Shown here: positions 3,904 to 32,382 of the stretch, piece by piece | How positions within the stretch are numbered: the stretch's first letter is position 1 | How the letters are laid out: every line of letters begins with the position of its first letter | NCBI GenBank assembly: GCA_026388335.1 | Contig: JAPLJZ010000126.1 | Span: 1 to 44,826, forward strand | DNA length: 44,826 nucleotides | Origin: Deltaproteobacteria bacterium | Lineage (GTDB): Bacteria; Desulfobacterota; Syntrophia; Syntrophales; UBA8958 | Direction: 5' to 3' | Program-made: the position numbers and the translations under genes | Notes under the pieces: generated by a model | The model's input: only the letters and a program-made list of their open reading frames with translations | Told to the model about the DNA's origin: nothing | Databases searched by the model: none

Positions 3904-3996
3904 AATCAGGACTCCTCAAAGATGATCATTTACGTAATGTAAGCGAAGATTAGCAAAAATGAAAAAATTTATAAAGAGTTATTTATGGAGCGGGTT

Positions 3997-8799: not shown

Positions 8800-8889
8800 C
8801 CTGAATTTCCTTGCTAATTACGTGAATTTGAGTATTATATTGCCGAAGCCATATGAATCAATCTGCTCGGATCAGGAGGATAAGAGAAC

Positions 8890-9711
8890 ATGCTCGACAC
8901 CCCCCAGTATGAAAAAGGCATGCTCTACAACATTTCCATCATCGATTTCCGCAAAGACCCCAATCAGCCCCGTAAATACTTTGACCCCGAGGCCCTGGAG
9001 GAATTGGCCGCCTCCATCAAGAAGCACGGCATCCTCCAGCCCGTGCTTTTCCGGCCCGATCCCGGAGAACAGGGCTGGCTGACCATTGTCGCCGGCGAGC
9101 GGCGCATCGAGGCGGCGAAAATAGCGGGGGTAAATATGATTCCCGCCCTTATGGTCGAGGGGAACGCCGATGAAATCGCCCTGGTGGAGAACCTCCAGCG
9201 CAAGGACCTCATGCCTGTCGAGGAGGCGGAGGCTATCGACAGGATGATGAAGAACCACAACTACAACCAGGAAGACCTTTCGGGCATAGTCAATAAATCC
9301 CAGCCGATGATCTCCAAAATCCTCTCCCTGAACCGTCTTCCACAGCAGATCCGTGACGAATGCCGTAGCGATCCAACGGTGCCCCGGGCAGTCCTTATCG
9401 CCATCGCCCAGAAGAAACAGGAACGGGCCATGCTGCGCCTCTACAATGAATATCGTGAAAAGACACTGAACCGCGAGGAGATCAAAAAGGAAGCGGGCGA
9501 CCGCAAGGGCAAGACCGCCATCCAATATGTCGCCATGATCAGTGATATGGACAAGCGTTTGGGAGAGATGGATCGTAGTGCCTGGACGGAAGATGACAAT
9601 ACTGCCTTTCAGGACGCTCTTGTCAACATGCGGGAAACGTTCACGCTCCTTCTCGATCCGGAGTCGCCGACACCCCTCCGCCCAAAAGTAAAATCGCGGG
9701 AGTTATTGTGA
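8890..9711 (+). CDS. ParB/RepB/Spo0J-type partition protein (orphan)
   Basis: 273 residues. The N-terminal ParB/Srx nuclease-like domain (about residues 15-105) shows the family signatures DPNQPRKYFD, LAASIKKHGILQPV, VAGERRIEAAKIAG and LVENLQRKDLMPVEEA; the GERR box is the CTP/phosphate-binding signature. A helix-turn-helix follows (SGIVNKSQPMISKILSLNRLP, about 130-152), and then a short C-terminal region unlike the usual Spo0J dimer domain. Start at 8890 with AGGAGGA at 8874-8880. No parA lies next to it, so it is either a regulator or a plasmid/ICE remnant rather than a complete partition system. A 16-bp palindrome sits 30 bases after the stop. Confidence 0.88.
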   Translation: MLDTPQYEKGMLYNISIIDFRKDPNQPRKYFDPEALEELAASIKKHGILQPVLFRPDPGEQGWLTIVAGERRIEAAKIAGVNMIPALMVEGNADEIALVENLQRKDLMPVEEAEAIDRMMKNHNYNQEDLSGIVNKSQPMISKILSLNRLPQQIRDECRSDPTVPRAVLIAIAQKKQERAMLRLYNEYREKTLNREEIKKEAGDRKGKTAIQYVAMISDMDKRLGEMDRSAWTEDDNTAFQDALVNMRETFTLLLDPESPTPLRPKVKSRELL

Positions 9712-9741
9712 ATAAGCGTATAATAACAATATTTTAAGTCG

Positions 9742-9757
9742 TATTCCCCGGGGAATA
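9742..9757. promoter_or_regulatory. 16-bp perfect palindrome, possible ParB or operator site
   Basis: TATTCCCCGGGGAATA is self-complementary over all 16 bases and is flanked on both sides by AATATT-like sequence. It lies 30 bases downstream of the orphan parB gene. It does not match the chromosomal parS consensus (TGTTTCACGTGAAACA) in sequence but has the same length and symmetry. Its role as a binding site for the neighbouring ParB is inference. Confidence 0.45.
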
Positions 9758-9826
9758 ATATTTAGGATAACCAAAATATCATCGGAAGAAGGGGTATTGA
9801 TAAAGAGCAATAAAAAGCGGGGATAC

Positions 9827-9909
9827 CGGGGTTAGAAAACCCCGACTAATGAACTACCCCGCAGCAAGCTTTGGGGTATCCGAGACGGCAAGGAACGAAG
9901 CAAGCTTCG
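9827..9909 (+). repeat. Cluster of three REP-like hairpins
   Basis: Three stem-loops follow each other: 9827-9844 (CGGGGTT / AACCCCG, perfect 7 bp), 9855-9878 (TACCCCGCAGC / GCTTTGGGGTA, 11 bp with one wobble and one mismatch, AA loop) and 9896-9909 (CGAAGC / GCTTCG, perfect 6 bp, AA loop). The second and third share the AGCAAGCTT core. This compact GC-rich layout resembles REP/BIME elements mobilised by Y1-type (RAYT) transposases. No other copy was seen in this window. Confidence 0.6.
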
Positions 9910-9947
9910 GGGAATATGACCCGGAGATTCAAACAGGACTCGGTCTG

Positions 9948-10667
9948 ATGACGAAGCGCGAAAAACATACACCATACTGCCATCTTTCCCGCCGAAAACA
10001 GCGTGACAGTTTCATCCGGCTGCGTCAGAAAATACGGAACGAAACTCCTGTTTATGGCGGACAGTTTACAAGCCCCCATGTTCTTGACGAGCCGGGACGT
10101 CCTGCCCTCTACAACCAGTGGGCCGACGCTTACTTCCTTGGGAGCGACGGGTTGACCATCTGGAATGCCGCCATCGTTTCCGCCGTCCATGAATTTTGGG
10201 ATACTGTTTCGGATATGGCGCATACCCGAGCATGGGAGATGCTGACCCCGGAAGAGCAGTCCGCAGAGGCGGAGATGAAGTTTGAGCCGATCTGGTCAAA
10301 AGGTAAACGGATGTACCGATGGATAGAAAAACCGAAGATTGCCTATGAAAAATTCGGCGGGCTGACCTATCGTAACTACCAGAAAAAGCTAACCGACGAG
10401 ATTATCCAGAACGAACCGCCGGAGGTATTCGAGTCGTTCACGACGGATCGCTCTTATCAATACGGCATCGGGCTGAATATCGTTATCCATGTTGAAGAAA
10501 TCAACCGTGTGACCATCAACGAAGCCATCCGTAGATTCCGTGAGATTGGCGAAACGGACTGGCGGGCGGCAGCGCCCGTGCCACGGACCGAATTGCCCTT
10601 CGAAAGCCTCGATGCGGCCTTTCAAAAGATCAAGTTTGATGACCACAATTCTGAAAGCATTGAATGA
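9948..10667 (+). CDS. Hypothetical protein, first gene of a three-gene operon
   Basis: 239 residues from ATG 9948; the frame stays open back to 9849, but that extension translates the REP-like hairpins, so the internal start is preferred although its ribosome site (AGGACT) is weak. The protein is soluble, with no membrane helix. Recognisable stretches such as YNQWADAYFLGSDGLTIWNA and an acidic C-terminus do not place it in a family I know. Its stop overlaps the start of a 36-codon frame (ATGA), which ends two bases before the MmeI-like gene, so it is probably co-expressed with that restriction enzyme and may be an accessory or immunity factor. This is context only. Confidence 0.7.
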   Translation: MTKREKHTPYCHLSRRKQRDSFIRLRQKIRNETPVYGGQFTSPHVLDEPGRPALYNQWADAYFLGSDGLTIWNAAIVSAVHEFWDTVSDMAHTRAWEMLTPEEQSAEAEMKFEPIWSKGKRMYRWIEKPKIAYEKFGGLTYRNYQKKLTDEIIQNEPPEVFESFTTDRSYQYGIGLNIVIHVEEINRVTINEAIRRFREIGETDWRAAAPVPRTELPFESLDAAFQKIKFDDHNSESIE

Positions 10668-10774
10668 TGCTGGCACAATACGAGATAAAATTATTGCGGC
10701 AGAGCAAGAAGGAATTAGGAGAGTTTGTACGGAAAATGTTCCGTGACACCTCCGCAGATCGGAAAGCGATGTAA
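10664..10774 (+). CDS. 36-residue micro-ORF coupled to its neighbours
   Basis: The frame begins with two ATG codons (10664, 10667), the first overlapping the upstream stop as ATGA, and ends with TAA at 10772-10774, two bases before the ATG of the MmeI-like gene. The peptide is basic and helical-looking (MMLAQYEIKLLRQSKKELGE at the N-terminus). The perfect fit between two genes suggests translation, either as a small protein or simply to couple translation through the operon. No family is recognised. Confidence 0.45.
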   Translation: MMLAQYEIKLLRQSKKELGEFVRKMFRDTSADRKAM

Positions 10775-10776
10775 AC

Positions 10777-13629
10777 ATGGCCATAACGCCCGAACAATTC
10801 ATCGACCTATGGAAAGACAACAAACTCACCGAGCGCGGCGGGGCGCAGCCGCATTTTGACGACCTTTGCGACCTTCTCGGCGTTGACAAACCGCGTGATC
10901 CGGTCAACTATTGCTTTGAGCGCGGCGCTAAAAAATCAGGTGGCAGCGACGGCTGGGCCGATGTCTGGAAACGCGGCTATTTTGGCTGGGAAAACAAAAA
11001 ACCAGGGCGCGACCTTGGCGCCGCCCTGAAGCAGCTCACCGACTATGCCCTGCAACTCGAAAACCCGCCGCTCCTCGTCGTTTCCGATCGCGAACGCATT
11101 ATCATCCACACCGCCTTCACCGACTACCCCGACGAGGTGCGCGAAATTCGCATCGAAGAGCTGGTCAATCGCGAAAAGCTGCAAATTCTGCGTTGGGTAT
11201 TCACGGACCCCCAAAAACTGCGCCCGGAAAAATCCACCGCCGCCATCACTGCCGAAGCTGCCGGGCACTTTGCTGAACTCGCCAAGGCCATGCGCGCCCG
11301 CGGGATTGACGGCCAACAAGTGGCTCATTTTCTTGTGCAATGCCTGTTCTGCATGTTTGCCGAAGACGAACTCCTGCTTCCCGGCAAGGTGTTCACTGAA
11401 ATCCTCAAAAACGCCGTCGGCGACGCCGACAAGGCCGGAAAACGCATTGGCAAGCTCTTTGCGGCCATGCAGCAAGAAACCGGCGGCGAATATGGCGATC
11501 ACGACATTGCCTGGTTCAATGGCAGTCTCTTTAAAACCATCGACATTCCCCCATTGAACAGAGACGATCTGGCCGCCCTGTACACCGCCGCCGCCGACAT
11601 GGACTGGCGCGCCATCGACCCTACCATTTTCGGCACCCTCTTCGAGCGGGGCCTTGATCCCGCCGCCCGCGCTCCTCTCGGCGCTCACTACACCGATACC
11701 GGCACCATCGCCAAGCTCATCCAAACGCTTATTACCGAACCGTTACTGGCCAAATGGCAGACCGTCAAAGCAGTTATTGCCGCCGGGCAAGGCAAAGGTC
11801 CACGCACCAGGGAATACAAGAAAGCCCGTGCCGCCTACCAAGGCTTTCTGCTGTACCTCCATCTCTTTCAGGTCCTCGACCCCGCCTGCGGATCGGGAAA
11901 TTTTCTTTACCTCGCCCTCAAAGCCCTGCGCGATGTGGAAAAGCAAGCCCACATCGATGCCCAGGAACTTGGGTTTGAGTCGGAACTCCTGATGCAAACC
12001 GGACCGCACAACATTCGCGGCATCGAAATCAACGAATTCGCCGCCGAACTCGCCCGGGTCACCGTCTGGATCGGCGACATTCAGTGGTGCCGCCGCAATG
12101 GACGGGAGATTGCCAGAAACCCAATCCTGCGCGCCCTGGATAGTATCGAACACCGCGACGCCCTCCTCAACCCGGACGGCAGCGAGGCCGCCTGGCCGCA
12201 GGCGGATGTAATCGTCGGTAATCCGCCGTTTTTGGGTGACAAGATGATGCGCAGTGAACTGGGCGATACCTACGTCGAGACGTTGCGCAAACGTTATGAA
12301 GGTCGAGTTCCCGGCGGCGCGGATCTGGTAACATACTGGTTTGAGAAGGCGCGGGCGCAGATCGCCGCAGGACAAACGGGTGCTGCGGGGCTGGTGGCCA
12401 CCAATTCCATCCGACAGAAACGCAACCGCACCGTACTGGAACGCATTCTTGAAAGCACCCGCATCTTCGCAGCCTGGTCGGACGAGGATTGGATAAACGA
12501 GGGGGCGGCCGTGCGGGTTAGCCTGGTGTGTTTCGGCCAAGGCGGCGACACGCGTCTCGACGGAAATCCCGTGGCCACCATCCATGCCGATTTGACCGGC
12601 AGCGCCCAGGGAGGTGAAACATCGGACCTCACCCAGGCCCTGCCTCTCCCCGCCAACAAGGGGCGCTCATTCTTCGGAATTTGTCTGGCCGGCCCCTTTA
12701 AAGTCGATACGGCCACGGCCCTGCAATGGCTCAAGGACAGCGGCAACCCGAACGGACGCCCCAACAGCGACGTCGTGCGGCCCATCTACAACGGCTCCGA
12801 CATCACCCGGCGTTGGGCGGGCAACTGGGTGATCGACTTTGCCGGAATGGATCTGGCTGCCGCCGCCGATTACCTCGCGCCTTTCGCCTATGTAGAGGCC
12901 AAGGTCAAGCCGATACGAATCGGCAATCGCGAGACTTCAAGGGCTGAAAGGTGGTGGCGGCACGGTCGATTTCGCCCGGAGTTGCGCGCCTCTCTCCAGG
13001 GCCTAACCCACTTTATCGCCACTTCGGAAACTGCCAAGCACCGATTCTTCGTTAAATTCACGGTGGAGGTGGCGCCTGAACACAAGCTAATCGTCATCCC
13101 TCGCCAAGACGACGTGACACTTGGGATACTATCCTCACGCATCCATTGCCTATGGGCGATTGAAAACGGAGGGCGTTTGGGCGTTGGAAATGACCCTGTT
13201 TACAACTCAAGTCTTTGCTTTGAAACCTTCCCCTTCCCACCCGGATTCGATCTCAAGGCAGAGGTAGCCCCGGATGGCGATCAGTTCGTCGCCATTGCCG
13301 AAGCCGCCGCCGACCTCGATACCTGGCGCGAAAAATGGCTCAACCCGGAGGGCTGGCTGGACTGGGAGAGTACACCGGAAGAGCAAAACGCCGGTTTTCC
13401 GCCCCGCCCGGTCCCCAAGTCGGAGTACGCTGCGGCCTGGAAGAAACGTACCCTGACGAACCTCTACAACGAAATGCCCGCCGGGCTGAAACTGCGCCAG
13501 GAAAAGCTCGACCGGGCCGTCGCCGTCGCTTACGGATGGACCGATTACACCCCGGACATGTCCGACGAAGACATCCTGCACCGCCTGCTGGCGCTTAACC
13601 TGGAGCGGTCAAAGGCTGCGAAAGCATAA
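10777..13629 (+). CDS. MmeI-like type IIL/IIG restriction-methylation enzyme
   Basis: 950 residues, the usual length of MmeI-family single-chain enzymes that both cleave DNA and methylate adenine on one strand. The N-terminal nuclease shows the exact MmeI spacing D62-x9-E72-N-K74 (within GWADVW...GWENKK). A helical linker follows (about 150-300), then the N6-adenine methyltransferase with motif I DPACGSGNFL (368-377) and motif IV NPPF (482-485). The target-recognition domain would cover about 620-850, and the C-terminal helices end at 950. The start lies two bases after the micro-ORF stop, so it is part of the 9948 operon. All catalytic motifs are intact, so the enzyme is probably active. The recognition sequence cannot be read from the protein. 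Confidence 0.9.
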   Translation: MAITPEQFIDLWKDNKLTERGGAQPHFDDLCDLLGVDKPRDPVNYCFERGAKKSGGSDGWADVWKRGYFGWENKKPGRDLGAALKQLTDYALQLENPPLLVVSDRERIIIHTAFTDYPDEVREIRIEELVNREKLQILRWVFTDPQKLRPEKSTAAITAEAAGHFAELAKAMRARGIDGQQVAHFLVQCLFCMFAEDELLLPGKVFTEILKNAVGDADKAGKRIGKLFAAMQQETGGEYGDHDIAWFNGSLFKTIDIPPLNRDDLAALYTAAADMDWRAIDPTIFGTLFERGLDPAARAPLGAHYTDTGTIAKLIQTLITEPLLAKWQTVKAVIAAGQGKGPRTREYKKARAAYQGFLLYLHLFQVLDPACGSGNFLYLALKALRDVEKQAHIDAQELGFESELLMQTGPHNIRGIEINEFAAELARVTVWIGDIQWCRRNGREIARNPILRALDSIEHRDALLNPDGSEAAWPQADVIVGNPPFLGDKMMRSELGDTYVETLRKRYEGRVPGGADLVTYWFEKARAQIAAGQTGAAGLVATNSIRQKRNRTVLERILESTRIFAAWSDEDWINEGAAVRVSLVCFGQGGDTRLDGNPVATIHADLTGSAQGGETSDLTQALPLPANKGRSFFGICLAGPFKVDTATALQWLKDSGNPNGRPNSDVVRPIYNGSDITRRWAGNWVIDFAGMDLAAAADYLAPFAYVEAKVKPIRIGNRETSRAERWWRHGRFRPELRASLQGLTHFIATSETAKHRFFVKFTVEVAPEHKLIVIPRQDDVTLGILSSRIHCLWAIENGGRLGVGNDPVYNSSLCFETFPFPPGFDLKAEVAPDGDQFVAIAEAAADLDTWREKWLNPEGWLDWESTPEEQNAGFPPRPVPKSEYAAAWKKRTLTNLYNEMPAGLKLRQEKLDRAVAVAYGWTDYTPDMSDEDILHRLLALNLERSKAAKA

Positions 13630-17767: not shown

Positions 17768-18898
17768 ATGATTTATCTTGATCACAATGCAACAACTTCC
17801 ATTGCGCCAGAAGTTTTGGAGGCAATGATGCCGTATTTAACCACGGAGTGGGGCAATCCCTCCAGCAGTTATAAATTTGGATCGCATCTGAAAGCCGTGA
17901 TTGAAAAAGCACGAGGACAGGTTGCGGAATTAATTGGCGCCTACCCTTCCGAGATCGTTTTCACGTCTTGTGCAACGGAGAGCAATAACACTGCCATTAA
18001 TGCGGCGCTAAAGACAAATCCCGGGAAACGACATATTGTTACATCGTCCGTGGAGCACTCGTCGGTTTTAAACCACTGCATGGCACTCGAAAAAGAAGGT
18101 TACAGAGTAACTTATCTTCCTGTTGACACAGAAGGCTTACTCAGTCTAACCAATCTGGAGAGCGTCATTACTGAAGAAACAGTCATTGTGTCATTAATGT
18201 GGGCCAATAATGAAACTGGGGTTCTTTTTCCAATACAGGAAATAGCGGAGATATGTGACTCGCGTGGAGTCCTTTGCCATTGTGATGCGGTTCAAACAGC
18301 CGGTAAGGTCGAGATTGACATTAAAAAAACCAAGATCGACTACTTATCACTGACAGGACATAAATTCCATGCACCAAAAGGCATCGGCGCCCTCTACGTT
18401 AGGCGAAAAACACCATTCATACCATTAATACATGGAGGGCATCAGGAGCGTAATATGCGCGGTGGTACAGAAAGTGTGCCGCTAATCGTCGGCATAGGCA
18501 AAGCTGCAGAATTAGCGCGGAAACACTTGCCAAAATATGAGAACAACGTACGACCATTGCGGGATGCGCTTGAAGATGGGATTCTGAACTCGATTCCAAA
18601 TACGGAGTTAAATGGCCACAAGAAAAAACGGTTGGCAAATACAACCAATATTACATTCAAGGGCATCGAATCCGAAGCTCTTTTAATCTTGCTGGATCAG
18701 GACGGCATATGTGCATCATCAGGATCTGCATGCCTTGCTGATTCTGACGAACCATCGCATGTTATTAGAGCTATGAAATCGGATTCTGAGGCTTCACGAC
18801 AGATGATCAGGTTTTCATTAAGTGAATTAAATACACCGCAGGAAACTACAAGTGTGATTAATGCGATTCGCAAATCATCTATAGTTCTTCGCTCATAA
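17768..18898 (+). CDS. dndA: Cysteine desulfurase, probable DndA
   Basis: 376 residues, class V PLP enzyme of the NifS/IscS type. The substrate and cofactor motifs are YLDHNATT, SCATESNNTA, VEHSSVLN, the PLP lysine K199 in SLTGHKFHAPKG, and the mobile loop SSGSAC with catalytic Cys322. It converts cysteine to alanine and carries persulfide sulfur. It could be housekeeping, but no iscU, iscR or tRNA-thiolation gene is nearby; instead its stop lies 11 bases from the convergent end of a dndC-dndD operon, so sulfur supply to DndC for DNA phosphorothioation is the likeliest role. The ribosome site before ATG 17768 is poor (GAG). The DNA is AT-richer than the preceding gene, as in the rest of the dnd region. 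Confidence 0.8.
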   Translation: MIYLDHNATTSIAPEVLEAMMPYLTTEWGNPSSSYKFGSHLKAVIEKARGQVAELIGAYPSEIVFTSCATESNNTAINAALKTNPGKRHIVTSSVEHSSVLNHCMALEKEGYRVTYLPVDTEGLLSLTNLESVITEETVIVSLMWANNETGVLFPIQEIAEICDSRGVLCHCDAVQTAGKVEIDIKKTKIDYLSLTGHKFHAPKGIGALYVRRKTPFIPLIHGGHQERNMRGGTESVPLIVGIGKAAELARKHLPKYENNVRPLRDALEDGILNSIPNTELNGHKKKRLANTTNITFKGIESEALLILLDQDGICASSGSACLADSDEPSHVIRAMKSDSEASRQMIRFSLSELNTPQETTSVINAIRKSSIVLRS

Positions 18899-18909
18899 AT
18901 CATAACCCA

Positions 18910-19902
18910 CTATGTGTATATGGCCTCAACAAACGCGGGAAAATATCTATAAAGCTCTGCATATGTTTCTATATCGTCGGTTGGGACACCCGGCAGATTT
19001 ACTGTCTCACCGCGGGGAAGTTGGGCATTTAAATGACGCATTTCCTTGCTTGTTAAGCAGGGTACTTTAATATTGTATGCTGTATCCTCATAGCGGACAA
19101 AATTGAGTTCATTGAAAGAGCATGCATCAAGTTTATTTTCCTCACTAGTTTCATAGAAGATCCATCCAAGTGTCATCATCGGTGCACCATCAGTATAAAG
19201 AAAATTAATTATCTGGCGCTGAACCAACTTATTCTCAGTTAGCAAGACACCGTTTCGCGCAGAGAAAGCCTCCGCAATTCTGCTTTTAAGTATATTACGA
19301 GAGATTTTCCCGACTCCCTTTCCCCTCAAGTCAGTGCCTTTAACCTCTCTTGGTACAGCGTCGCCAAGTCGCTTTCTGAATTCATGAAGCGCGTAATCAT
19401 CAACATTATATTCCATACCTGTCTGTTCAGTGTATGCCTTCTTTTGCTCTTCATCAGGATTTCTATCTGTATGAACATTAAAAGTCACTATTAACAAACT
19501 GCCCGAACCAGCCTTGGCACACACAGTACAGACGTCCGACAAGATTGACTCATCCAGCTTTGATTCGTAGTCAAGCCAAACGATTGATTTGGAGCTCATA
19601 TCTAACTCCGGCAAGACCTCCGAAGACTTCCGGTAATCGATAGTTATGCATTTGTAAGGCTTATTGAACTCAAAACATTCCTTTGCATATGCATCTTTTT
19701 CAATGCTGAGCATATTGTCTATTCCGAGATTGCGGTGAAACAATTGAAAATCACTGAAGTAAATTGATCCGAAACCTATATAACGGTAATTTTCGATCTT
19801 ACCAAAAGGGTAGAGTCGGTGGAAGACTTCACAAAGCATTTTCCGCTCAATGGTCTTTGCAGGTCTAAGGGAGTAGTTAATGGTTCTATAGCTACCAGAC
19901 AT
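18910..19902 (-). CDS. Rossmann methyltransferase-like protein, last gene of the dnd operon
   Basis: 330 residues. The N-terminal half resembles a class I SAM-binding fold: YRYIGFGSIYFSDF can be motif I, LSIEKDAYAKECFEFNKPY the acidic post-I loop, and KSIVWLDYES the motif IV strand. It looks like the group catalogued as putative O-methyltransferases, which has no firm substrate. No NPPY/DPPY is present, so it is not an ordinary DNA N-methyltransferase; the C-terminal half is unassigned. Its ATG overlaps the stop of the GHKL-ATPase gene by one base (TAATG) with GGAG upstream, so the two are made together. In this operon it takes part of the place where dndFGH or pbe effector genes would be expected. 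Effector or modifier function is inference. Confidence 0.75.
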   Translation of the reverse strand: MSGSYRTINYSLRPAKTIERKMLCEVFHRLYPFGKIENYRYIGFGSIYFSDFQLFHRNLGIDNMLSIEKDAYAKECFEFNKPYKCITIDYRKSSEVLPELDMSSKSIVWLDYESKLDESILSDVCTVCAKAGSGSLLIVTFNVHTDRNPDEEQKKAYTEQTGMEYNVDDYALHEFRKRLGDAVPREVKGTDLRGKGVGKISRNILKSRIAEAFSARNGVLLTENKLVQRQIINFLYTDGAPMMTLGWIFYETSEENKLDACSFNELNFVRYEDTAYNIKVPCLTSKEMRHLNAQLPRGETVNLPGVPTDDIETYAELYRYFPAFVEAIYT

Positions 19903-21287
19903 TATTCTGCTCCTTCGTATTCCATATAATAGTCAAATGTCTTTTCTCCAACGGCAACATATGTGTGCACATTAAGACGCTTCATTGCCTTCTTCACTTC
20001 AGAGAGCGGTTTGGTATATTGAATTTTTTGCATAGGTGGCCCAGCTTGTATTGGGTTCGGTTGAGGTGCAACAAATTTGGTTGATATTTGAAACGTTTCT
20101 GTTCGTTGAGCTGTCGCACTTTTGATTGCTTGGTCGAGAGATTTATCAGTACTATCACCTTTTTCGACTGCAGCCCTTTCCTTTTCTAAATTAGACAAGA
20201 ATGTCAGAACAGGTTTAGAAAGTTCGATCATTTCTTGTTGAACACTCCTGTAAATCGGAGAATCAACATCAACTCCTGTTTTAGTTGTTGTCCACGGCAA
20301 CAGAGTAGCATCATCCGAATCGAAATATGCATAACCACGGAAATAGGCAAAGTCAGGATGGTATTGGCGCATATCATGCGCTTGACCCCAGATTGTTATT
20401 GCGCTCTGATCTGCTCGTATTACTAGACGACCATTACAAAACACATACCAGCCCCCCTCATGCAAAATTCTTTCTGCTACGCCAGCAAAAAGCTTAACAG
20501 TAACAGGTAAGCCAGGTTTACCATCAAGAAGTTCTCTCTGGTAGATTTTCTCCACAAACGCAGGTTTTAGCTTATCAGATATAAAAAGTTTCGCGGGCTC
20601 ATTGTTTAAAGGTATCGTGTTAACGGTAATAGTAAGACCCTTATCAATACTAAGCGTGTGTGCAAGACTCATCTCATTCTTTAGCCGAGTTAAAAAGTTA
20701 TCAAGAGCAAAACTTTCAGCAACGGATTCATAGAGCTCGCTAATTTCAATACGAGTACCGATTTTGTCAGCGGGCACATCAGAAAGATCTTCCTCGACTG
20801 TTTTAAATTCAAAATGCCAGTCGTCAGCTTTTCCTGCCTGATCCGTTGCTTTCCATTGTTCGACGTCAATATCCATTTCAAATTGAGACGTCATTGTCGC
20901 CGAGCAAACAGTGAAATGGCGTCCTAATTTGAAAAAAGTCCGTTTCATTCCGACACCAAATTGTCCCACTGAACCAGGTGTAAGAGGTGCGTCCTTGGGA
21001 CGGCCAAAACGAAAAGCATAGTTACGCGCTATATCCACTGGGATGCCACCACAGTTATCCGCTATCTTGAAATGATTTTTATCGAGTTCTACACGAATGG
21101 TTAGATCATTAAAGTTGCCGTTTGATCTCATACGCCTTGCACCGTCCACGGAATTGTCTATCAAGTCAAGGATCGCACGGGTAAGCGGAATATCCCGTGT
21201 AAGCATGTAAATAAAGAATTCCTTTGTTGGTGATGCGTTAATGAGTTTTGGGTTTTTGTCCAGTGCCGGCTTGGATTGCTCTGGCAT
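19902..21287 (-). CDS. GHKL (MORC/MutL-like) ATPase of the dnd operon
   Basis: 461 residues from ATG 21287 (the frame extends 7 codons further, but this ATG has GGAGG upstream and overlaps the previous stop as TAATG). The Bergerat fold is clear: N-box AILDLIDNSVDGA, G1 box IADNCGGIP, G2 box GSVGQFGVGMKRTFFKLG and the later G-T-R-I-E-I strand. The N-box carries Asp where MutL and Hsp90 have the catalytic Glu. A transducer-like S5 region follows (about 215-370), with a polar, possibly coiled C-terminus and no nuclease motif seen. MutL/MORC-type ATPases accompany several restriction and defence systems, where they clamp or remodel DNA. Its one-base coupling on both sides puts it firmly in the dnd system. 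Confidence 0.85.
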   Translation of the reverse strand: MPEQSKPALDKNPKLINASPTKEFFIYMLTRDIPLTRAILDLIDNSVDGARRMRSNGNFNDLTIRVELDKNHFKIADNCGGIPVDIARNYAFRFGRPKDAPLTPGSVGQFGVGMKRTFFKLGRHFTVCSATMTSQFEMDIDVEQWKATDQAGKADDWHFEFKTVEEDLSDVPADKIGTRIEISELYESVAESFALDNFLTRLKNEMSLAHTLSIDKGLTITVNTIPLNNEPAKLFISDKLKPAFVEKIYQRELLDGKPGLPVTVKLFAGVAERILHEGGWYVFCNGRLVIRADQSAITIWGQAHDMRQYHPDFAYFRGYAYFDSDDATLLPWTTTKTGVDVDSPIYRSVQQEMIELSKPVLTFLSNLEKERAAVEKGDSTDKSLDQAIKSATAQRTETFQISTKFVAPQPNPIQAGPPMQKIQYTKPLSEVKKAMKRLNVHTYVAVGEKTFDYYMEYEGAE

Positions 21288-22771
21288 TATTTGCCTCCAT
21301 CTTTCCAAAATTGCCTACTCATCCCTTGAAGCAGCCTTCCATGCAGGCGAAGAGCTGCTTCAGTCTTCTTTAACTTTGCATGAATGACTCCTCCAAGGAT
21401 CATCCGTTGCTGGGCATCCGTCAAGGTTTGCGGAGAAAAATGGATACCACACTCGGCCAACTCAGCAAAGTTAGTCTCATTAGCGCCGGTGGTTAAAAAT
21501 TTATCGGCGTCTTGCGATGCCAACCATACTGGAAATCCCCATGAGCGGCCTTGACGCGCCAACGCACTAAGGAGGCCCGCCTTGTTTTCTTTTGGTAAAA
21601 GCAGGTGGGCTTCATCAACAAATAAAACCATTTTAAGAGGCTGAATGTCATTCTTAACAGCCAATTGTTGCCCCAGTTTCTTGATTAGGAAGTTAAGGAT
21701 GAGTGCAACTGCAAGTGCCTTTGTCTCACTATCCGTACCAAATTCTTTGAAATCAATAACGATTGAGCTACTAAGCCACTCTTCAGGGCTGATACTTGAC
21801 TGTTGGCTCGCAAAGAGATCAAAAGCTACAATTTTTTTAAGAATTGCTACATCAACACCACTAGCATTTCTCTGCTCCACAGCTTCCGTAAGTGTCGCGA
21901 AGTCGGGTGCATCCAAGTCCATGTATGCTTCTCGGATTGTCATTTCCTGCTTTGCACCCAGTTGTTGCGCAAAAGCTTTGATTAGAGAGGCAATCTCAGA
22001 TGCAACTTGAGCGTTTTGCGTAGGATTTGGATGTCGGAAAAAGGGATTGATCGGAAGGCCTTGCTGAATGAGCCGAACGTACTGCGCGCCTGTTTGATCT
22101 AGAAAACGAGAGCGATTCTTTCTTTGCTGAGCATTGTTGGGATCGTCTTCCAGTTCGCCCTTTAGATCAAAGAAAACAAAGCGAACCCCTTGCCCAGATA
22201 ATTGAGCAAGCAGATCAAGAGCGAGCTGACTTTTCCCCGAACCTGGTTCGCCTGAAATAACCAGAAGGCCATTTTTAGTGCCGGGTCCGTTCATGCTCCA
22301 TTCAGTCCCATCTATAAGTAATTTGAGCTTTACTTCCTTTTCGACAACCGGCATTACGGGCACTTCCGGTTTAAAAGTCCCTTGGAGCCCGAAATCATCG
22401 CCTGCCAATTTGAGCAACGACGAAACGAAATGAGCTTGATCATGGCCGGATTCCTGCCAAATTGATTTGAGCCGCTGGCAGCCAAACTCAAAATAACGAC
22501 GGAACTCATGGCGATAACCACTTTCATCGAGTGTGCGTCCTGCACGGTGATTCAACGCTGCCCGGACAACATCGCGTAATTCATCACCGATGACTTGTTC
22601 ATCATTAAGGGTAACGCCTTTGGAGTCCTTGGGTTTGAACTCAGGGGGGATACCTTCTCCCAAAGCAAGGAATAGGGCAGCGCGTCCCAGTACCGCTTGA
22701 TTGCGCGCACCAACTCGTGTGTGGACAGTCTCGATAAATTCATGGGTATCACGACTTGTATCGAATTTCAT
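21287..22771 (-). CDS. dndE: DndE domain fused to a HerA-like ATPase
   Basis: 494 residues. Residues 1-110 resemble DndE, the small protein that binds nicked DNA in phosphorothioation: a helical domain with NQAVLGRAALFLALGEG, the glycine turn and GDELRDVVRAAL. After a linker comes a RecA/HerA-type ATPase with Walker A GEPGSGKS (174-181), strand RFVFFDLKGE, Walker B MVLFVDEAHLLL (Asp386-Glu387) and the RQGRSWGFPVWLASQ arginine-finger/sensor region of HerA-FtsK proteins. Bacterial DndE is normally a separate protein of roughly 110-130 residues, so the fusion is notable. The start has AAGGGGAAAT upstream and lies nine bases after dndD; the stop overlaps the GHKL gene. The ATPase may drive translocation during modification or restriction (inference). 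Confidence 0.85.
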   Translation of the reverse strand: MKFDTSRDTHEFIETVHTRVGARNQAVLGRAALFLALGEGIPPEFKPKDSKGVTLNDEQVIGDELRDVVRAALNHRAGRTLDESGYRHEFRRYFEFGCQRLKSIWQESGHDQAHFVSSLLKLAGDDFGLQGTFKPEVPVMPVVEKEVKLKLLIDGTEWSMNGPGTKNGLLVISGEPGSGKSQLALDLLAQLSGQGVRFVFFDLKGELEDDPNNAQQRKNRSRFLDQTGAQYVRLIQQGLPINPFFRHPNPTQNAQVASEIASLIKAFAQQLGAKQEMTIREAYMDLDAPDFATLTEAVEQRNASGVDVAILKKIVAFDLFASQQSSISPEEWLSSSIVIDFKEFGTDSETKALAVALILNFLIKKLGQQLAVKNDIQPLKMVLFVDEAHLLLPKENKAGLLSALARQGRSWGFPVWLASQDADKFLTTGANETNFAELAECGIHFSPQTLTDAQQRMILGGVIHAKLKKTEAALRLHGRLLQGMSRQFWKDGGK

Positions 22772-22780
22772 TATTTCCCC

Positions 22781-24847
22781 TTATAAGTCATGGCCAAAGT
22801 AATCACTAGCGACACGTACTTCGTACCCAATACCGTCTGGTTTGCCCTGCGGGTGCAACGTATATACTCTGGCGACCTGGTGGCGAATCCGGTCAAATAG
22901 TGGTCCCTCAGGATCAATCTCTGCATTCGTACTTAAAATAATGGACTGATGTCCGCCCAAGTAAAGCTTGTCAAGAACATTGGCTCGCACTTCTTTGTCG
23001 AGACGTGCCAATGGTGTATCAACCACAAGCGGCGGCACGAGTTTCGCTAGCCGTCGTAAAGCCTCATAGAAGGACAACATGCGCACTTGTCGTTGTCCTG
23101 CAGAGGTGTTGGTTTCTTCCCAAGTCACACGCTTCCCATCTTTGCGTAGCAGCCAGCATTGCCAATGACTATCAAAATCCATTCCGGCAAACTCGAGCTG
23201 CCGTTCGGTGATTTCTATCCATAAATCACCGACATGTTCGGAAATCCGTTTGCGCATCTGGATGGCTGCGCGGCTGCGAACTTCACCCGCCGCTCCGCGG
23301 TATCGGGCTGCTAATGCAGCTAGGCTCTCACCTTTTTGTGCCTTTTCTACGATTTCAAGCTGATTTGTCTCCTGGCGTTTAAGTTCACTTAGCTCGCTAT
23401 CCAAGCGGATGATATCACTGTTCAGTTCATTGATTCGCTTACTGATTTGATCCCGCTTTGCGATAAGCTCCCCTCGCTTTTGATGTAGTTCCGTACCTCG
23501 TATGAAAGCAGCCGTGTTCTGCTGCATTTGTTTAAGCTTCTGGTCTAGTTCGCGTAACTCAACATCCATTCGTTCAATATTTATACACATGTCGGCCAAA
23601 TCCTGCAACGAACTTACCGATTTAGAGAGCCTTTGCCTAATTTGGGCACTGATGTCGTTTCTCTCTGTTACAAAAACATGGTCGGGAATGCTTTCTGGCG
23701 GTGGATGAAAGAGTCGATTTAAGGCATCGTCCAGCCGTTTCATGAAGAAATCCCTGGTGCTGTTCTCCAATGTATACTCTTCGGGGATGCAGTCGAACAC
23801 ATCCTTTTTAATTTGAGGTATTTTCGGCTCAACGGTTGATTTTGCACTTTCCCACTCACGGCGTCTTTCTTCCGACTTGAGGTATTCATGGAGGTCTTTA
23901 CGATAGCTGCCAAACAAAGCGACGGGAAGCGCCTCTTCCCAAGCGTCAGTCAGTTTTGATTCCAAAGCCGCTTTTATCTTTGTAATTTCATTACGGCGCT
24001 CCTGTGCCTTTTGCAATTCTTCAGGATCCACAGCCCCTAATGTTTTGAGATCGTCTTCAACCTCCAGCAACTCAGCCTCAATTTCGAGAAGCTCACGTTC
24101 AAGTGATTCTTGTTCCTTGTGCCGTGCCTTAAGATACCCATCAGCACGCATCACATCAGCCGTCAGGTCAACCAGTTTGGTTTGCTGGTCTTGTCCTCCA
24201 CTGAGATTAAAGACACGAGGTATTTTTTGTTGAATTAATTGGCGCAAATCTGTTTCCAACTCCCCATATGTCCATAAACCAAGAATTCGTGTGATACCTT
24301 CGATAATATCCTGATGGCTTAGATTTATGCTCTGGCTGCGTTCGGCATCAAAGAAAAAGAATCGTGCAAGATGGCGCGGCAGAAAGGCATCCCGTAGTTT
24401 CTGAATCACCTGCTCGTCTTCTATCTGGCTGGCCGTATCTGACCGTACAGCATATGAGCGCCATACAGGGGGCGAGTTCGTACGGTGCCGTATCTCCCGC
24501 ATCAGATGAACTTTACGGCTGCCTCCACTTCTTTCATCACGAAGAGCTATATTAACTTGGAGCCTAACGGTATCCTTCCCTTCAGCCAAGGCACGTCGGT
24601 TAAGCGATTTATCGAAGGCGAACCTGGTGGCATCTGAACCAGTTTCAACACGCTTTAAATCGCCGACCCCGCTTTCGCCAACAACTGCAAGGTACAATGC
24701 ACGCAGTAGATGTGTCTTGCCAGCACCATTTCTCCCACCAATTAGGATACCACTTAACCCGTCTAGGCTACTAAAATTAAAAATATGCTCGCCGTAGAAC
24801 GGGCCAAAGTTTTCCAGCGTCAATGTGTCAAGATAAACTTCAGACAT
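22781..24847 (-). CDS. dndD: DndD, SMC/Rad50-like ATPase of DNA phosphorothioation
   Basis: 688 residues from ATG 24847, chosen because it has AAGGA upstream and overlaps the dndC stop by 8 bases; the frame extends 27 codons further into dndC. N-terminal half-ATPase: TLENFGPFYGEHIFNF and Walker A GGRNGAGKT (37-45). The middle, about 200-560, is largely charged coiled coil; no Rad50-type CxxC zinc hook is present. The C-terminal half carries the ABC signature region TSAGQRQVRMLSF and Walker B PLVVDTPLARLD followed by the D-loop. This matches DndD, the ATPase thought to nick or open DNA for sulfur insertion by DndC. Confidence 0.92.
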   Translation of the reverse strand: MSEVYLDTLTLENFGPFYGEHIFNFSSLDGLSGILIGGRNGAGKTHLLRALYLAVVGESGVGDLKRVETGSDATRFAFDKSLNRRALAEGKDTVRLQVNIALRDERSGGSRKVHLMREIRHRTNSPPVWRSYAVRSDTASQIEDEQVIQKLRDAFLPRHLARFFFFDAERSQSINLSHQDIIEGITRILGLWTYGELETDLRQLIQQKIPRVFNLSGGQDQQTKLVDLTADVMRADGYLKARHKEQESLERELLEIEAELLEVEDDLKTLGAVDPEELQKAQERRNEITKIKAALESKLTDAWEEALPVALFGSYRKDLHEYLKSEERRREWESAKSTVEPKIPQIKKDVFDCIPEEYTLENSTRDFFMKRLDDALNRLFHPPPESIPDHVFVTERNDISAQIRQRLSKSVSSLQDLADMCINIERMDVELRELDQKLKQMQQNTAAFIRGTELHQKRGELIAKRDQISKRINELNSDIIRLDSELSELKRQETNQLEIVEKAQKGESLAALAARYRGAAGEVRSRAAIQMRKRISEHVGDLWIEITERQLEFAGMDFDSHWQCWLLRKDGKRVTWEETNTSAGQRQVRMLSFYEALRRLAKLVPPLVVDTPLARLDKEVRANVLDKLYLGGHQSIILSTNAEIDPEGPLFDRIRHQVARVYTLHPQGKPDGIGYEVRVASDYFGHDL

Positions 24848-26135
24848 GATCCGTTCCTTGCTCTGCCGCTTGTGAATCCAAGTCGTCCTTGAGAGCATTG
24901 AGCAAGTCATCCTGCAAGCCGTAGGCACGATGACTCTCGCTGTACCCCTCGACTACAGCTAGCATACGGCGAAGCGTATCCGCACGTACACCAAGTTCCT
25001 GGGCGACCTTTTCTTCCATCTCGCGTAGACTGTTCAACTCATTGATGTCGGTATTCATTATGACACCTCGCTGTTCGTTGATGATGCGGGCAACACCCTG
25101 TCCATCGTCAGGATCACGTGCCGTTTTCCACATCTGCTGGATTAGAAGTAGTTCTTCAGGGCTTATTAGGGTCAAACTAAGCTCTTCTTGTAGGTTCAGC
25201 AACTGGCTGAGCAATTCACGACGTGCTTCAATGTGCAGCGGACCAGGCCCATCATTACCGTTCATTCGTTTCATGTCTCTTTTACCATTAGAAGGGTCAC
25301 GGTAATCAAGCAGGGTTTGGCGAAACTCTATCAATTTTTCCATCCGCTCATCACCTGCCGCCAGCAGGCCTTCGCTGGCTTTGTCACGCTCGACAACAGT
25401 ACATGTCCAACATCCAAACCGCGAATTTCCACAGGAAGGTGTACTATTGTCTATATGTATTGGGCACTCGCCGTTGGATGCGTTTGTATAAAGCTTATAT
25501 AGGGCGCGATTATCATCGCCCCAGGGATTATTATTTTGTAACAGGTAAGCCCACACTTCTTCTGTTGTGAGATATTCGATAGGGTTGGAAACCCAGACGC
25601 GTGGTAGGTCGGGGTGTCGACGGAGTCCGTTCCTTTTTTCACGTCCCGCCATTGACTGCGCACGCGAAGCGCTTTCGGCACGGCGTGCTCCAAGATGGAT
25701 TATCGCTTCACCCCAATGGCCCATACGCTGGTTCACAAATTTTGTCACAGGATCAATTTTCATGCGCTGTGTACACCAGCGGAAAACTCGATTAGGTGGG
25801 GGATAACCACGGCCTATTATATTTACCCAAAAAGATTGCTCAGGCGGTGGCTTCAGCAACATAACTTCAACATTGAGATCTAACTTTTGCGAAGACTTAC
25901 TCATCCGTTTCAGCGTGTTTTCCAGAATCTCAACTATGGCTGGGATTTCTGCACGTGTGTCGGTTGATATAATTGTGACAGGTTTATTCCGTTGGTCATG
26001 TGGTATGGATAATATCGTGTTAAATACCAACGCTGCAACTAATGTACTGTCCTTACCGCCACTAAAGCCTACAAGCCAAGGCCTTGAATCGTTTATATAT
26101 TGGTCTCTTAGGTTGTCAAGAATTTCTTTATACAT
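24840..26135 (-). CDS. dndC: DndC, Fe-S sulfurtransferase of DNA phosphorothioation
   Basis: 431 residues from ATG 26135; a TTG at 26201 would add 22 residues, and neither start has a strong ribosome site. It belongs to the PAPS reductase/ATP-pyrophosphatase family: P-loop SGGKDST (25-31), WCTQRMK with Cys121, LGARRAES, and CGNSRFGCWTC giving Cys235, Cys242 and Cys245, the expected ligands of the 4Fe-4S cluster together with Cys121. DndC activates the DNA backbone and inserts sulfur supplied by DndA. About 75 residues at the end, after a short MNTDINEL junction, form a predicted helical extension. It is the first gene of the five-gene operon, and its stop overlaps dndD by 8 bases (ATGTCTGA). 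Confidence 0.93.
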   Translation of the reverse strand: MYKEILDNLRDQYINDSRPWLVGFSGGKDSTLVAALVFNTILSIPHDQRNKPVTIISTDTRAEIPAIVEILENTLKRMSKSSQKLDLNVEVMLLKPPPEQSFWVNIIGRGYPPPNRVFRWCTQRMKIDPVTKFVNQRMGHWGEAIIHLGARRAESASRAQSMAGREKRNGLRRHPDLPRVWVSNPIEYLTTEEVWAYLLQNNNPWGDDNRALYKLYTNASNGECPIHIDNSTPSCGNSRFGCWTCTVVERDKASEGLLAAGDERMEKLIEFRQTLLDYRDPSNGKRDMKRMNGNDGPGPLHIEARRELLSQLLNLQEELSLTLISPEELLLIQQMWKTARDPDDGQGVARIINEQRGVIMNTDINELNSLREMEEKVAQELGVRADTLRRMLAVVEGYSESHRAYGLQDDLLNALKDDLDSQAAEQGTDHV

Positions 26136-26342
26136 GTTTGTTGTAGGTGAAGGCTTTCTTTTGAGTGGAGGCAGTATATGGAAAGGAAGCCTGTGTGTCA
26201 ATGGGTATCCGACGAATATTAAGGATAAGAGGGATAGAAACGAATACGATTGTCGGTGAAGTTAGATGCCAAACTTGGGCAAAACATGAATTTCACAAAC
26301 ACGACTAACCGTAAGTATGTGGATACCAGCCTTTTTACATGA

Positions 26343-30784: not shown

Positions 30785-30872
30785 GCCTGGGTGGCGGAAC
30801 TGGTAGACGCAAGGGACTTAAAATCCCTCGACGCTTGACGTTGTGAGGATTCGATTTCCTCCCCAGGCACCA
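30785..30872 (+). tRNA. tRNA-Leu (anticodon TAA)
   Basis: 88 bases including an encoded CCA. Acceptor GCCTGGG pairs with CCCAGGC, the D-arm is GGCGGAACTGGTAGACGC, and the anticodon arm AGGGACTTAAAATCCCT has loop anticodon TAA. The class II variable arm CGACG-CTTGA-CGTTG and T-arm GAGGATTCGATTTCCTC are normal. It serves as integration target: bases from 30815 to just past the CCA are repeated at 32063-32122. It is read toward the inserted element. Confidence 0.97.
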
Positions 30873-30880
30873 ATAAAAAC

Positions 30881-30920
30881 AAGCGGTTAGACACATAGTC
30901 TGACCGCTTTTTCTTTTTTC
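30881..30920 (+). terminator. Intrinsic terminator after tRNA-Leu
   Basis: AAGCGGTTAGAC and GTCTGACCGCTT form a 12-bp stem (one wobble) with an ACATA loop, followed by TTTTCTTTTTTC. It lies inside the inserted element, so the element brings its own terminator for the tRNA it occupies. Confidence 0.9.
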
Positions 30921-30992
30921 AGAAAAATCTTGGCGGAAGAATGGCGGAAGAAAAATCCCCTGTCAAAGACAAGGGATTCACAAGGGACTTTT

Positions 30993-31117
30993 GGCAGGGC
31001 AGGGATTTGCACCCTGCATTGCAGACTCGGCTTACCCTGCTTGACGGGTCTTTCTATGAGTGCCTGACACATTTCTGTGCTGTCGCTAACCCGGCGATAC
31101 CTATTCCGCCACCTGCC
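30993..31117 (-). ncRNA. tRNA-like structured sequence, 125 bases
   Basis: Read on the minus strand it begins GGCAGGTGGCGGAATAGGTA and ends with a T-arm-like CAGGGTGCAAATCCCTG plus CCTGCC that pairs with the 5' end. The D-arm closely follows tRNA-Leu. In between there are about 80 bases with a CACA-GAAA-TGTG hairpin and a CGGGT/ACCCG stem, but no convincing 7-base anticodon loop, and the total is too long for a normal tRNA. It may be a decayed or element-borne tRNA-like molecule. No CCA is encoded. Confidence 0.4.
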
Positions 31118-31498
31118 TTAAATATTGTGAGACATAGAAAAAGTAGTATGGTTTGATTCGTTTTTGATAACTATTTTTTGTAATTTCTTGAATAAAATAA
31201 AAATTTCAACATCACTTATATTTCTTCCATATTTTATTGGGTAAACAAAGTCTTCTGAGTCTTCTGATATGTTTTTGTCTAAATAACCCATAGTTAAGGG
31301 ATGGGGAAGTCTTGGATAAAAATACAATTTATCTCCAAGTTTAAAATTATATTTGTATTTTGATTGGAATAAATACGCTCTGATACTATATGTTGAATTG
31401 TAAATATCATCTATTAAAACAGCCCAATAATATTTTTCTGGCATACATTTTTGAACAAAAATCCCGATTGCTAATTGACCAACTGTTCTGAAAGCCAA
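31118..31498 (-). CDS. Hypothetical protein in the tRNA-Leu element
   Basis: 126 residues, strongly AT-rich DNA, rich in Tyr, Phe, Ile and Lys. The protein appears soluble and beta-rich (KLGDKLYFYPRLPHPLTMGY); no domain was recognised. The start at 31498 has only a weak GAG upstream; an internal Met at residue 19 (MPEKYYWAVLIDD) is an alternative. It lies divergent to the 96-residue gene, with about 100 bases of promoter-like AT-rich DNA between them. As cargo of a small element without an integrase it could be a defence or maintenance gene, but this is only context. Confidence 0.5.
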   Translation of the reverse strand: MAFRTVGQLAIGIFVQKCMPEKYYWAVLIDDIYNSTYSIRAYLFQSKYKYNFKLGDKLYFYPRLPHPLTMGYLDKNISEDSEDFVYPIKYGRNISDVEIFILFKKLQKIVIKNESNHTTFSMSHNI

Positions 31499-31599
31499 TT
31501 CAACTCGGGACTATTGTTTGAACAGTTAATTATTGATTATATTATCATTTTAGCATATAGGAAAAATCTGTCAATGTGGATAACTGAAAGGAGGGGGAT

Positions 31600-31890
31600 A
31601 TGATCAAGCTGACATACGGAGGACAGTTTAATGAAATGGATTTAGTGGCTCACATTAAAGCATCAAATCGCAAATACATAATTCAAGGCCAGCAAGCGGT
31701 ATCTCTCAATAATCATACCAAGCCAAACTCTTTGGACTATTGGCTTCGGCAATTTGGATCAAACCCTGACACCAAGCAAGCGGATAAGTGCGTTATTGGT
31801 TTATTGGTTGCCACGGGGCTGTTCAAGGAAGTTAGCAGTCTTCCTTGCCCCGATACTGGTAGGCTAGTCAAGGGGCTGATTCTCATTTAA
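31600..31890 (+). CDS. Small hypothetical protein in the tRNA-Leu element
   Basis: 96 residues, with a very strong ribosome site (AAAGGAGGGGG) before ATG 31600, so it is probably translated. It has a compact alpha/beta look, with VAHIKASNRKYIIQGQQAVS and DKCVIGLLVATGLFKEV; no membrane helix and no known motif. The terminal half resembles a small winged-helix-like layout, but this is too vague to call. It may regulate the divergent gene. Confidence 0.6.
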   Translation: MIKLTYGGQFNEMDLVAHIKASNRKYIIQGQQAVSLNNHTKPNSLDYWLRQFGSNPDTKQADKCVIGLLVATGLFKEVSSLPCPDTGRLVKGLILI

Positions 31891-32382
31891 TACGCCGTAG
31901 GAACATTTAGGAATATCCTCTTTTCGGCGGAAATACGGCGGAAGAAAACAGTTAAAAATAGCATTTTTTGTTCTCAAATCTTCCTAAATATTATTAGGCA
32001 AAATACTAACGTATTCAAATAGATATAGCATTTTCAGCAACTTACAAAAACACGTCTTTAAAGACTTAAAATCCCTCGACGCTTGTCGTTGTGAGGATTC
32101 GATTTCCTCCCCAGGCACCAATTAAAAACAGGGGCTTACATGGTCATTGCTGACCGGTAGGCCCTTTGTTGTTTCTGCCGGCTGTCCGATTTTTCCCCAC
32201 TCTCTCCCCACTTTTGGAAATCCTGTGGCCTTTCCCAGGTAAAAAAAGAGGGGCAACCTTGCCTTGGTCAACCCCCTATTTCAACGCCAAATAAATTTTG
32301 ACTTACAAAATCACTTGCCTTATATTCACCAACGATCAAAATCTATTTCTTAATCATTCCTGAACTCTGAATGGAGGATCTC
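31891..32382. other. Right end of the element and gene-free flank
   Basis: No coding frame is supported. It contains the two GGCGGAA motifs (31925-31948), an inverted repeat ATTTAGGAA/TTCCTAAAT near 31912 and 31981, a 12-bp palindrome GTCTTTAAAGAC (32054-32065) that straddles the start of the right repeat, the tRNA-Leu 3' half (32063-32122), a bulged hairpin GGGGCTTAC...GTAGGCCC with a TTTGTTG tail near 32131-32166 that is probably the original tRNA terminator, and a second imperfect hairpin near 32230-32275. Confidence 0.6.

Follow-up and report, generated by a model that had tools for sequence, protein, structure and literature searches.

We analyzed a stretch of 44,826 nucleotides (the window), which is contig C201 of a 4.06-Mb deltaproteobacterial genome in 268 contigs (order Syntrophales), and describe in it a mini unit, W, that lies between two direct repeats of the 3' part of a tRNA-Leu(TAA) gene, carries two short divergent genes, and has no recognized integrase. 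Units with the same frame and different cargo are found at other tRNA genes, and the four complete ones (W, A, B, and F) come from four genera. On balance, we favor the reading that W is a non-autonomous integrative element, similar to a cis-mobilizable element (CIME), which would use an integrase supplied by other elements.

Insertion of W at tRNA-Leu

By its sequence arrangement, W is an integrated unit of 1,248 bp (Table 1). The two 60-bp repeat copies, spaced by this same distance, differ by a single mismatch at position 30838; identity between them ends to the left of the repeat, and a genome search finds W only once in its own genome. Inside the unit, G+C amounts to 36.7% versus 49.2% for the window, and none of 823 other window stretches of 1,188 bp (taken every 50 bases) is equally low. 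Near each end lies a pair of GGCGGAA motifs (GGCGGAAGAATGGCGGAAGAAAA at the left and GGCGGAAATACGGCGGAAGAAAA at the right). This is the sole 7-mer of the whole window that forms pairs of 11-bp period at two distant places, and no such pair of pairs arose in 2,000 dinucleotide shuffles of the region. Neither P0001 nor P0002, the two main open reading frames (ORFs), shows a Pfam, PHROG, or NCBIfam match naming an integrase, and the smaller overlapping ORFs, which were left out of the family searches, are far too short to encode one. The attachment (att) repeats, the paired motifs at both ends, the AT-rich cargo, and the missing integrase had all been noted in the original prediction, and that observation of W is confirmed; the promoter and structured leader, the tRNA-like sequence, and the family of homologous units had been overlooked.

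The two main ORFs also match no relaxase or conjugation family, and neither points to a packaging or capsid-redirecting gene, the two having no Pfam family and only weak PHROG matches of unassigned function. Of nine inverted pairs listed in the region, none joins the two ends of W; these ends repeat the tRNA 3' part in direct orientation, and the arm pairs further in are direct as well. We noticed no attC site in W, with no dedicated attC search made, and the tRNA is the only Rfam match reaching its gathering score.

A relative shows the empty site. The tRNA was used to search 60 relatives, and in one of the same genus (G005) the upstream amidohydrolase-like gene (91.7%) is followed by the tRNA without insert (carrying a 2-N assembly gap) and then immediately by the hairpin terminator displaced in W (88.7% over 53 bp to positions 32123-32175). 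In G006, the same terminator stands right behind an identical tRNA (91.5% over 47 bp), with no similarity upstream. In two further relatives, G002 and G007, the upstream gene is retained (92% and 89%, respectively) and other DNA lies behind the tRNA, as it also does in G001 and G003; no match was found in G004. Since the terminator lies directly behind the tRNA in these relatives, the one behind the proximal copy in W came with the element, which bears out the earlier claim of a replaced terminator; the empty site, whose lack in every relative was to have counted against an insertion, is present in G005. Repeats of the same tRNA-Leu 3' end also occur about 10 kb apart in G044 (contig C1, 2182968/2193054) and about 6.8 kb apart in G013 (contig C1, 138174/145014), which suggests that insertions have repeatedly targeted this tRNA-Leu gene in the order.

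Homologous units and their arm geometry

The other units were recovered by several searches. DNA of the leader stretch matched 4 of 155 genomes of the order, its own included, the tRNA-like stretch of W matched one genome besides its own out of 100, and a leader model built from W, A, and B added one further genome, that of F, among 154 of the order. This model did not list unit C, and it also weakly matched the opposite strand of B and A (E = 0.005 and 0.04, respectively), as an imperfect palindrome would. Arm-pattern searches gave unit D and a right end in a phylum relative, G283. A pattern scan for the promoter motif in a named genome collection returned two records only, those of B and C, the window's own record possibly being excluded and A and F not fitting the pattern. 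No element DNA was found in phages and no leader DNA in plasmids. Among 395 sampled phylum genomes, the leader model R3 found only the window, with at most eight candidates scored per genome and the other carriers lying outside the sample; a restriction of the family to one order is not firm.

Alignments give the units a shared order of repeat, new tRNA terminator, left arm pair, terminator-like hairpin, minus-strand cargo, leader with promoter, plus-strand cargo, right end, and repeat, where the right end holds its arm pair inside inverted TTTAGGAA/TTCCTAAA. None of the four complete units contains an integrase, and their cargo differs. Unit A encodes a 223-amino-acid (aa) protein with a C5-cytosine methylase match (PF00145, 5.6e-7) and a 109-aa protein without assignment; unit B encodes a PF10137 CAP12/PCTIR TIR protein (1.7e-34), which is PADLOC candidate PDC-S35 (E = 5.2e-108), together with two unassigned proteins; and unit F encodes three small unassigned proteins, one of which matches phrog_31971 over the first 29 residues. 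The partial unit C encodes a 265-aa protein with a weak type IV restriction match (E = 0.005). Judging from these matches, one of the four complete units (B) carries a convincing defense candidate and another (A) a methylase-like gene. In G283 (contig C1, locus L126, about 9720-11128), another integrase-less unit of about 1.4 kb lies in tandem between tRNA 3' ends. It encodes SEC-C/HicB-like and CopG-like proteins and, by eye, has TTTTGCC-type pairs close to each end; its presence suggests that integrase-less units exist with other frames too.

The arm pairs keep nearly constant distances from the anticodon. Counted from the first base of each motif as written, with a few bases of play between motif types, the right pair lies at 141 bases in W, A, and D, 140 in B and F, and 138 in G283, and at 138 and 153, respectively, in E1 and E2, two integrase-bearing elements at tRNA-Lys. 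The left pair lies at 113 (W), 94 (A), 90 (B), and 91 (F) bases, and at 90 and 91 in E1 and E2. Because the spacing is near equal in the complete units and close to that of the integrase-bearing elements, the paired motifs look like arm-type sites, in support of the role first proposed for them. The 7-mers themselves vary by unit (GGCGGAA, GGCTAAA, and GGGGAAA types), the GGGGAAA type being the third motif, that of F.

In both tRNA-Lys arrays that are assembled on that side, a mini unit stands directly behind an integrase-bearing element. An intact tRNA-Lys is followed by E1 and then unit B in one (G055:C3), and a tRNA-Lys cut by the contig end is followed by E2 and then unit F in the other (G118:C53). 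E1 (10.2 kb) holds integrase, terminase, portal, and capsid genes and has arm pairs TGTGACCAAATTGTGACC (GTGACC type, 11-bp period), and E2 (12.8 kb) holds an integrase (PF00589, 5.6e-26) and GGGTA-type pairs. The mini units thus keep roughly the phage-type attachment site (attP) layout of the integrase-bearing elements at the same gene, with other arm motifs. A second integrase of G055 (contig C18, at tRNA-Arg) has the same arms as E1, and the same arms at different tRNA genes fit a rule in which arms would follow the integrase and the core would follow the tRNA. Among 30 integrase loci examined, out of 62 integrase matches in four genomes, 6 have exact 8-mer pairs with an 11-bp period. W's own genome has 17 PF00589 matches, counting fragments and probably Xer-type recombinases. 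E1 extends over about 2400-12000 of locus L041 and on into L075 (1-535); it also has terminases and DnaD-like and sigma-like genes, and looks like a capsid-forming satellite.

A loose arm pattern matched in 47 of the 155 genomes of the order, with a few matches in the control too. Those judged by sequence to be arm pairs of units were two each in G000:C201, G092:C59, and G055:C3 and one in G055:C32; a match in G112:C45 was rejected, there being no tRNA, and the others were dropped as chance from the matched letters alone. The tight pattern SGCKRAANWWYSGCKRAAGAAAA was derived from the seven sites of W, A, B, and D and does not cover the GGGGAAA-type motif of F. In the 155 genomes it found these seven sites, by construction, and no eighth, with no match for the reversed-pattern control; in the 395 phylum genomes it found W (two sites) and G283 (one site), the latter being one independent find.

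Table 1. Features of W (positions in the window) and units related to it (genome and contig)
Feature	Position or contig	Strand	Extent and basis
tRNA-Leu(TAA), target gene, intact after insertion	30785..30872	+	ARAGORN; Rfam tRNA 56.1 bits
Predicted attL, 60-bp repeat: tRNA 3' part (anticodon loop to CCA) plus 2 bases	30815..30874	+	
New terminator for tRNA, element-borne	30880..30920	+	Sequence; absent behind tRNA-Leu in empty-site relatives
Left arm pair, GGCGGAA twice, 11-bp period	30932..30954	+	113 bases from anticodon
Hairpin with T-rich run, probable terminator of minus gene	30954..30978	-	Read from sequence
tRNA-like sequence, 3' of minus gene	30992..31117	-	ARAGORN, introns and lowered threshold
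P0002, minus cargo gene, function unassigned	31118..31444	-	No Pfam, PADLOC, or NCBIfam match
Leader: promoter-like TTGACA-N16-TAAAAT and 5' untranslated region with long hairpin and pseudoknot-type pairing AACTGTTC/GAACAGTT	31446..31574	-	Conserved in relatives
P0001, plus cargo gene, 96 aa, function unassigned	31600..31890	+	Weak phrog_20342, E = 0.0042
Conserved right end; inverted TTTAGGAA/TTCCTAAA enclose arm pair	31899..32053	+	Alignments
Right arm pair, GGCGGAA twice	31926..31948	+	141 bases from anticodon of distal repeat
Predicted attR, distal copy of tRNA 3' end	32063..32122	+	59/60 identical
Original tRNA-Leu terminator, now displaced	32123..32175	+	Match to G005 and G006
Unit A, complete	G092:C59		Between tRNA-Lys(CTT) 3' ends (47 bp, 87%), 1,485 bp
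Unit A0, partial	G092:C59, upstream of A		Short, cut by contig start
Unit B, complete	G055:C3		Between tRNA-Lys 3' ends identical over 48 bases, 2,032 bp
Unit C, partial	G110:C61		Leader and one gene, no att repeats seen
Unit D, partial	G055:C32		Right end before tRNA-Gln(CTG) 3' end (tRNA by eye)
Unit F, complete	G118:C53		Between tRNA-Lys 3' ends, 1,498 bp
Right end in phylum relative, partial	G283		Before tRNA 3' end, probably tRNA-Leu(GAG) (by eye)

Cargo genes, leader, and tRNA-like sequence

Neither cargo gene of W belongs to a family that names a function. The best PHROG match of P0002 covers 22 residues only (E = 0.35), and tblastn found no relatives of P0001 in phages, plasmids, viral contigs, or 100 related genomes. 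For P0002, we think the ATG at 31444 a more likely start than the TTG at 31498. A frame ahead of the minus gene (MAFRTVGQL..) was considered as a translated leader peptide and rejected, for it hits a stop in F; the ATG behind the hairpin (CTG in A) is therefore taken as the start of the minus gene.

The predicted minus-strand transcript opens with a long terminator-like hairpin that ends in TCGGG.TTTTTGTT. Read by eye, 9 or 10 nucleotides separate the end of this hairpin from the start codon of the cargo (with CTG assumed in A), and no obvious ribosome-binding site precedes the minus cargo. Across the units, the TTGACA-like and TAAAAT-like hexamers are 16 or 17 bases apart. A second helix, in which the 5' flank pairs with the hairpin loop, is perfectly complementary in W, A, B, and F (AACTGTTC/GAACAGTT in W and A, AACTATCC/GGATAGTT in B, and AACCTTAGC/GCTAAGGTT in F). 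MAFFT misplaced this helix and the pairing was read by hand; compared with W, B has two positions changed on both sides and F has three. Taken singly, the helix does not exceed chance (an 8-bp stem arises in 16 to 57 of 1,000 shuffles per sequence), and the case for it rests on the compensatory changes between W, B, and F. The leader may control expression of the cargo. At about the place of the probable terminator of the minus gene, the relatives A and B also have hairpins.

The tRNA-like sequence of W has a class II fold, a Leu-type D arm, a 36-nucleotide insertion in the anticodon loop, and the T loop TGCAAAT. It escapes both the Rfam tRNA model and ARAGORN at default settings; ARAGORN calls it only when introns are permitted and the threshold is lowered to 50%, a setting that also yields two less convincing calls close by. 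A 33-bp stretch at its 3' end has a 94% match in unit A0.

Elsewhere in the window, cysteine desulfurase, PAPS-reductase-like, SMC-like, and HerA-like genes stand in a row (17768-26201, by eye) and resemble a DNA phosphorothioation (dnd) cluster, and a 950-aa ORF (10777-13629) may, judging by eye, encode a fused type II restriction-methylation protein.

Proposed mobilization and rival explanations

Under the reading that we favor, W would be essentially an attP site wrapped around two genes. Excision would proceed by recombination between the two tRNA repeats and would place an arm pair on each side of the core, which is the attP layout of phage-type tyrosine integrases. An outside source would supply the integrase. 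This could be a phage, satellite, or island whose arm specificity matches, already in the cell or newly arriving, and acting in trans; alternatively, W would leave in cis, excised jointly with an element next to it at the same tRNA gene. Ends, leader, and promoter, which make up the frame, would be kept and spread to other tRNA genes and hosts, with the cargo being exchanged. We infer the helper in trans, as well as the exact crossover, the action of another element's integrase, continued mobility, and passage between cells. A circle of 1.25 kb is too small to fill a capsid alone, and conjugation or packaging with other DNA would be needed.

Several observations weigh against this reading, and the main gap is the absence of any matching integrase. 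The helper integrase with matching arm sites that the original prediction proposed to look for did not appear: searches of W's own genome, the 155 genomes of the order, the 395 phylum genomes, and viral contigs turned up no integrase accompanied by GGCGGAA or GGCTAAA arm pairs. An excised circle or transfer was not seen. The known complete units number only four and come from a single order, and the searches beyond the order were sampled and filtered. The GTGACC-type arms of E1 and the GGGTA-type arms of E2 differ from those of their neighbors B and F, and W has no neighbor element in its array. Regarding the spacing, the left distance of W falls outside the range of 90 to 94, owing to extra sequence between repeat and arms, and the right distance of E2 falls outside that of 138 to 141.

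At the level of single loci, none of the 30 integrase loci has an exact GGCGGAA or GGCTAAA pair, and 7 carry a site that differs from a loose arm form by at most two substitutions. One of the candidates, L060 (G055:C4), was rejected as a helper locus, its GGGTAAAG pair being reversed relative to its att site, and the near-match site of L048 lies inside the integrase domain by coordinates; a diverged helper may be among the remaining near-match loci. In its own genome, the arm pair of W matches elsewhere only once, with 2 mismatches (G000:C74), where by our estimate about one match is expected by chance. Among viral contigs, arm-pattern matches in L082, L083, and L121-L125 were dropped as chance, with no tRNA and no att-like arrangement around the match, a right-end-pattern match in L137 was dropped as lying inside a gene, and the other viral scans gave no matches.

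The original prediction had left two options, a satellite mobilized by a helper integrase or the minimal leftover of one island. The satellite fits better, since other genera and other tRNA genes harbor the same integrase-less frame with different cargo, although the matching helper was not found. If W were such a leftover, an integrase-bearing island or prophage in tRNA-Leu would have lost all but its ends and two genes, as in an ordinary CIME, and the likeness among units would reflect descent from one integrase-bearing island family. CIMEs are described as decayed integrative and conjugative elements (ICEs) or integrative and mobilizable elements (IMEs) with att sites in the relevant passages of PMC5704250, units A0 and C look truncated, the tRNA-like sequence of W could be debris, and the missing helper is in keeping with decay. 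However, four complete units in four genera share the same compact frame, with divergent cargo and both arm pairs at near-constant spacing, which repeated independent deletions would hardly give, and neither the order (155 or 154 genomes) nor the 395 sampled phylum genomes yielded an integrase-bearing relative that shares this frame or these arms. We consider decay an unlikely though serious alternative.

Less probable again, and in our view improbable, is that trans mobilization plays no part and that the units move only in cis, in a composite with a neighbor that excises between the outermost repeats. The tandem positions of B and F with E1 and E2, arms of these neighbors that differ from those of the units, and the transfer of CIME-ICE tandems on record in the part of PMC5704250 that treats them are in line with such accretion, but W stands alone, units occur at tRNA genes other than Lys, and all four complete units have kept their own arm pairs at both ends, which passengers in cis would not need. 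That the repeat arose by tandem duplication of the tRNA gene, or by chance, has practically no probability left: the repeat is indeed tRNA sequence, but only the 3' 60 nucleotides are repeated, foreign AT-rich DNA lies between the copies, the empty site refutes it, and homologous units show the same arrangement with the 3' ends of other tRNA genes.

The non-autonomous element that we favor shares features with several known systems. By the definition given in passages of PMC5704250, a CIME is a decayed ICE or IME that keeps its att sites. Similarly, W lacks integration and transfer genes and keeps its predicted attL and attR, and tandem accretion at the same gene is seen in the relatives B and F, though not in W. 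With respect to derivation from an ICE or IME, W holds no ICE or IME gene, and unlike CIMEs, several units of 1.2 to 2 kb across genera and tRNA genes share a frame with leader and arm pairs and differ in cargo. At ssrA of Dehalococcoides, 15 islands without an integration module have been compared to CIMEs (PMC3146451, in the portion concerning these islands); they are likewise tandem units bounded by direct repeats of the end of an RNA gene, but as described there they carry reductive dehalogenase and other genes at one gene (ssrA), whereas the mini units carry two to three genes at several tRNA genes with conserved arm geometry. Clusters of attC sites lacking an integron integrase (CALIN) and the transposase-dependent miniature inverted-repeat transposable elements (MITEs) are treated as hitchers in sections of PMC11389934, being likewise non-autonomous with a recombinase from elsewhere, and the cassettes also have exchangeable small cargo. 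In contrast, tRNA 3' ends and arm-type pairs, of the sort used by phage-type tyrosine integrases, mark the boundaries of the mini units, and W lacks the transposase-type inverted ends of MITEs. Islands in tmRNA genes with an integrase and defense genes, one of them transduced by a jumbo phage, are reported in part of PMC12595487.

The mini units also resemble phage satellites, namely phage-inducible chromosomal islands (PICI), capsid-forming PICI (cfPICI), and phage-inducible chromosomal minimalist islands (PICMI), in their presumed dependence on a helper, but differ from them in having no recognized integrase, packaging, or replication gene. E1, which stands beside unit B with terminase, portal, capsid, and integrase genes, is presumably like a capsid-forming PICI. 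Among the open-license papers listed by text searches (at most 20 per search, of up to 1,254 matches), none described a conserved family of integrase-less tRNA units of this size, which is weak evidence of novelty.

More tentatively, the units might form a dedicated class of "integrase-poaching" cassettes, a possibility to which we give less credence than to the reading of W itself. Such cassettes would combine an attP with a standard expression platform (promoter and pseudoknotted leader), live as integrase-less parasites of phage and satellite integrases, shift their 7-bp arm motif to the integrase at hand and their core to the tRNA, and carry interchangeable, partly defense-type cargo. Tools for finding genomic islands at tRNA genes usually look for an integrase, so units like W are missed. 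The conserved spacing and changing arm motifs make it directly testable which integrase serves which unit. If this is a standing family, it would be to tyrosine integrases what MITEs are to transposases, and it would offer a cheap route for moving single defense genes between bacteria.

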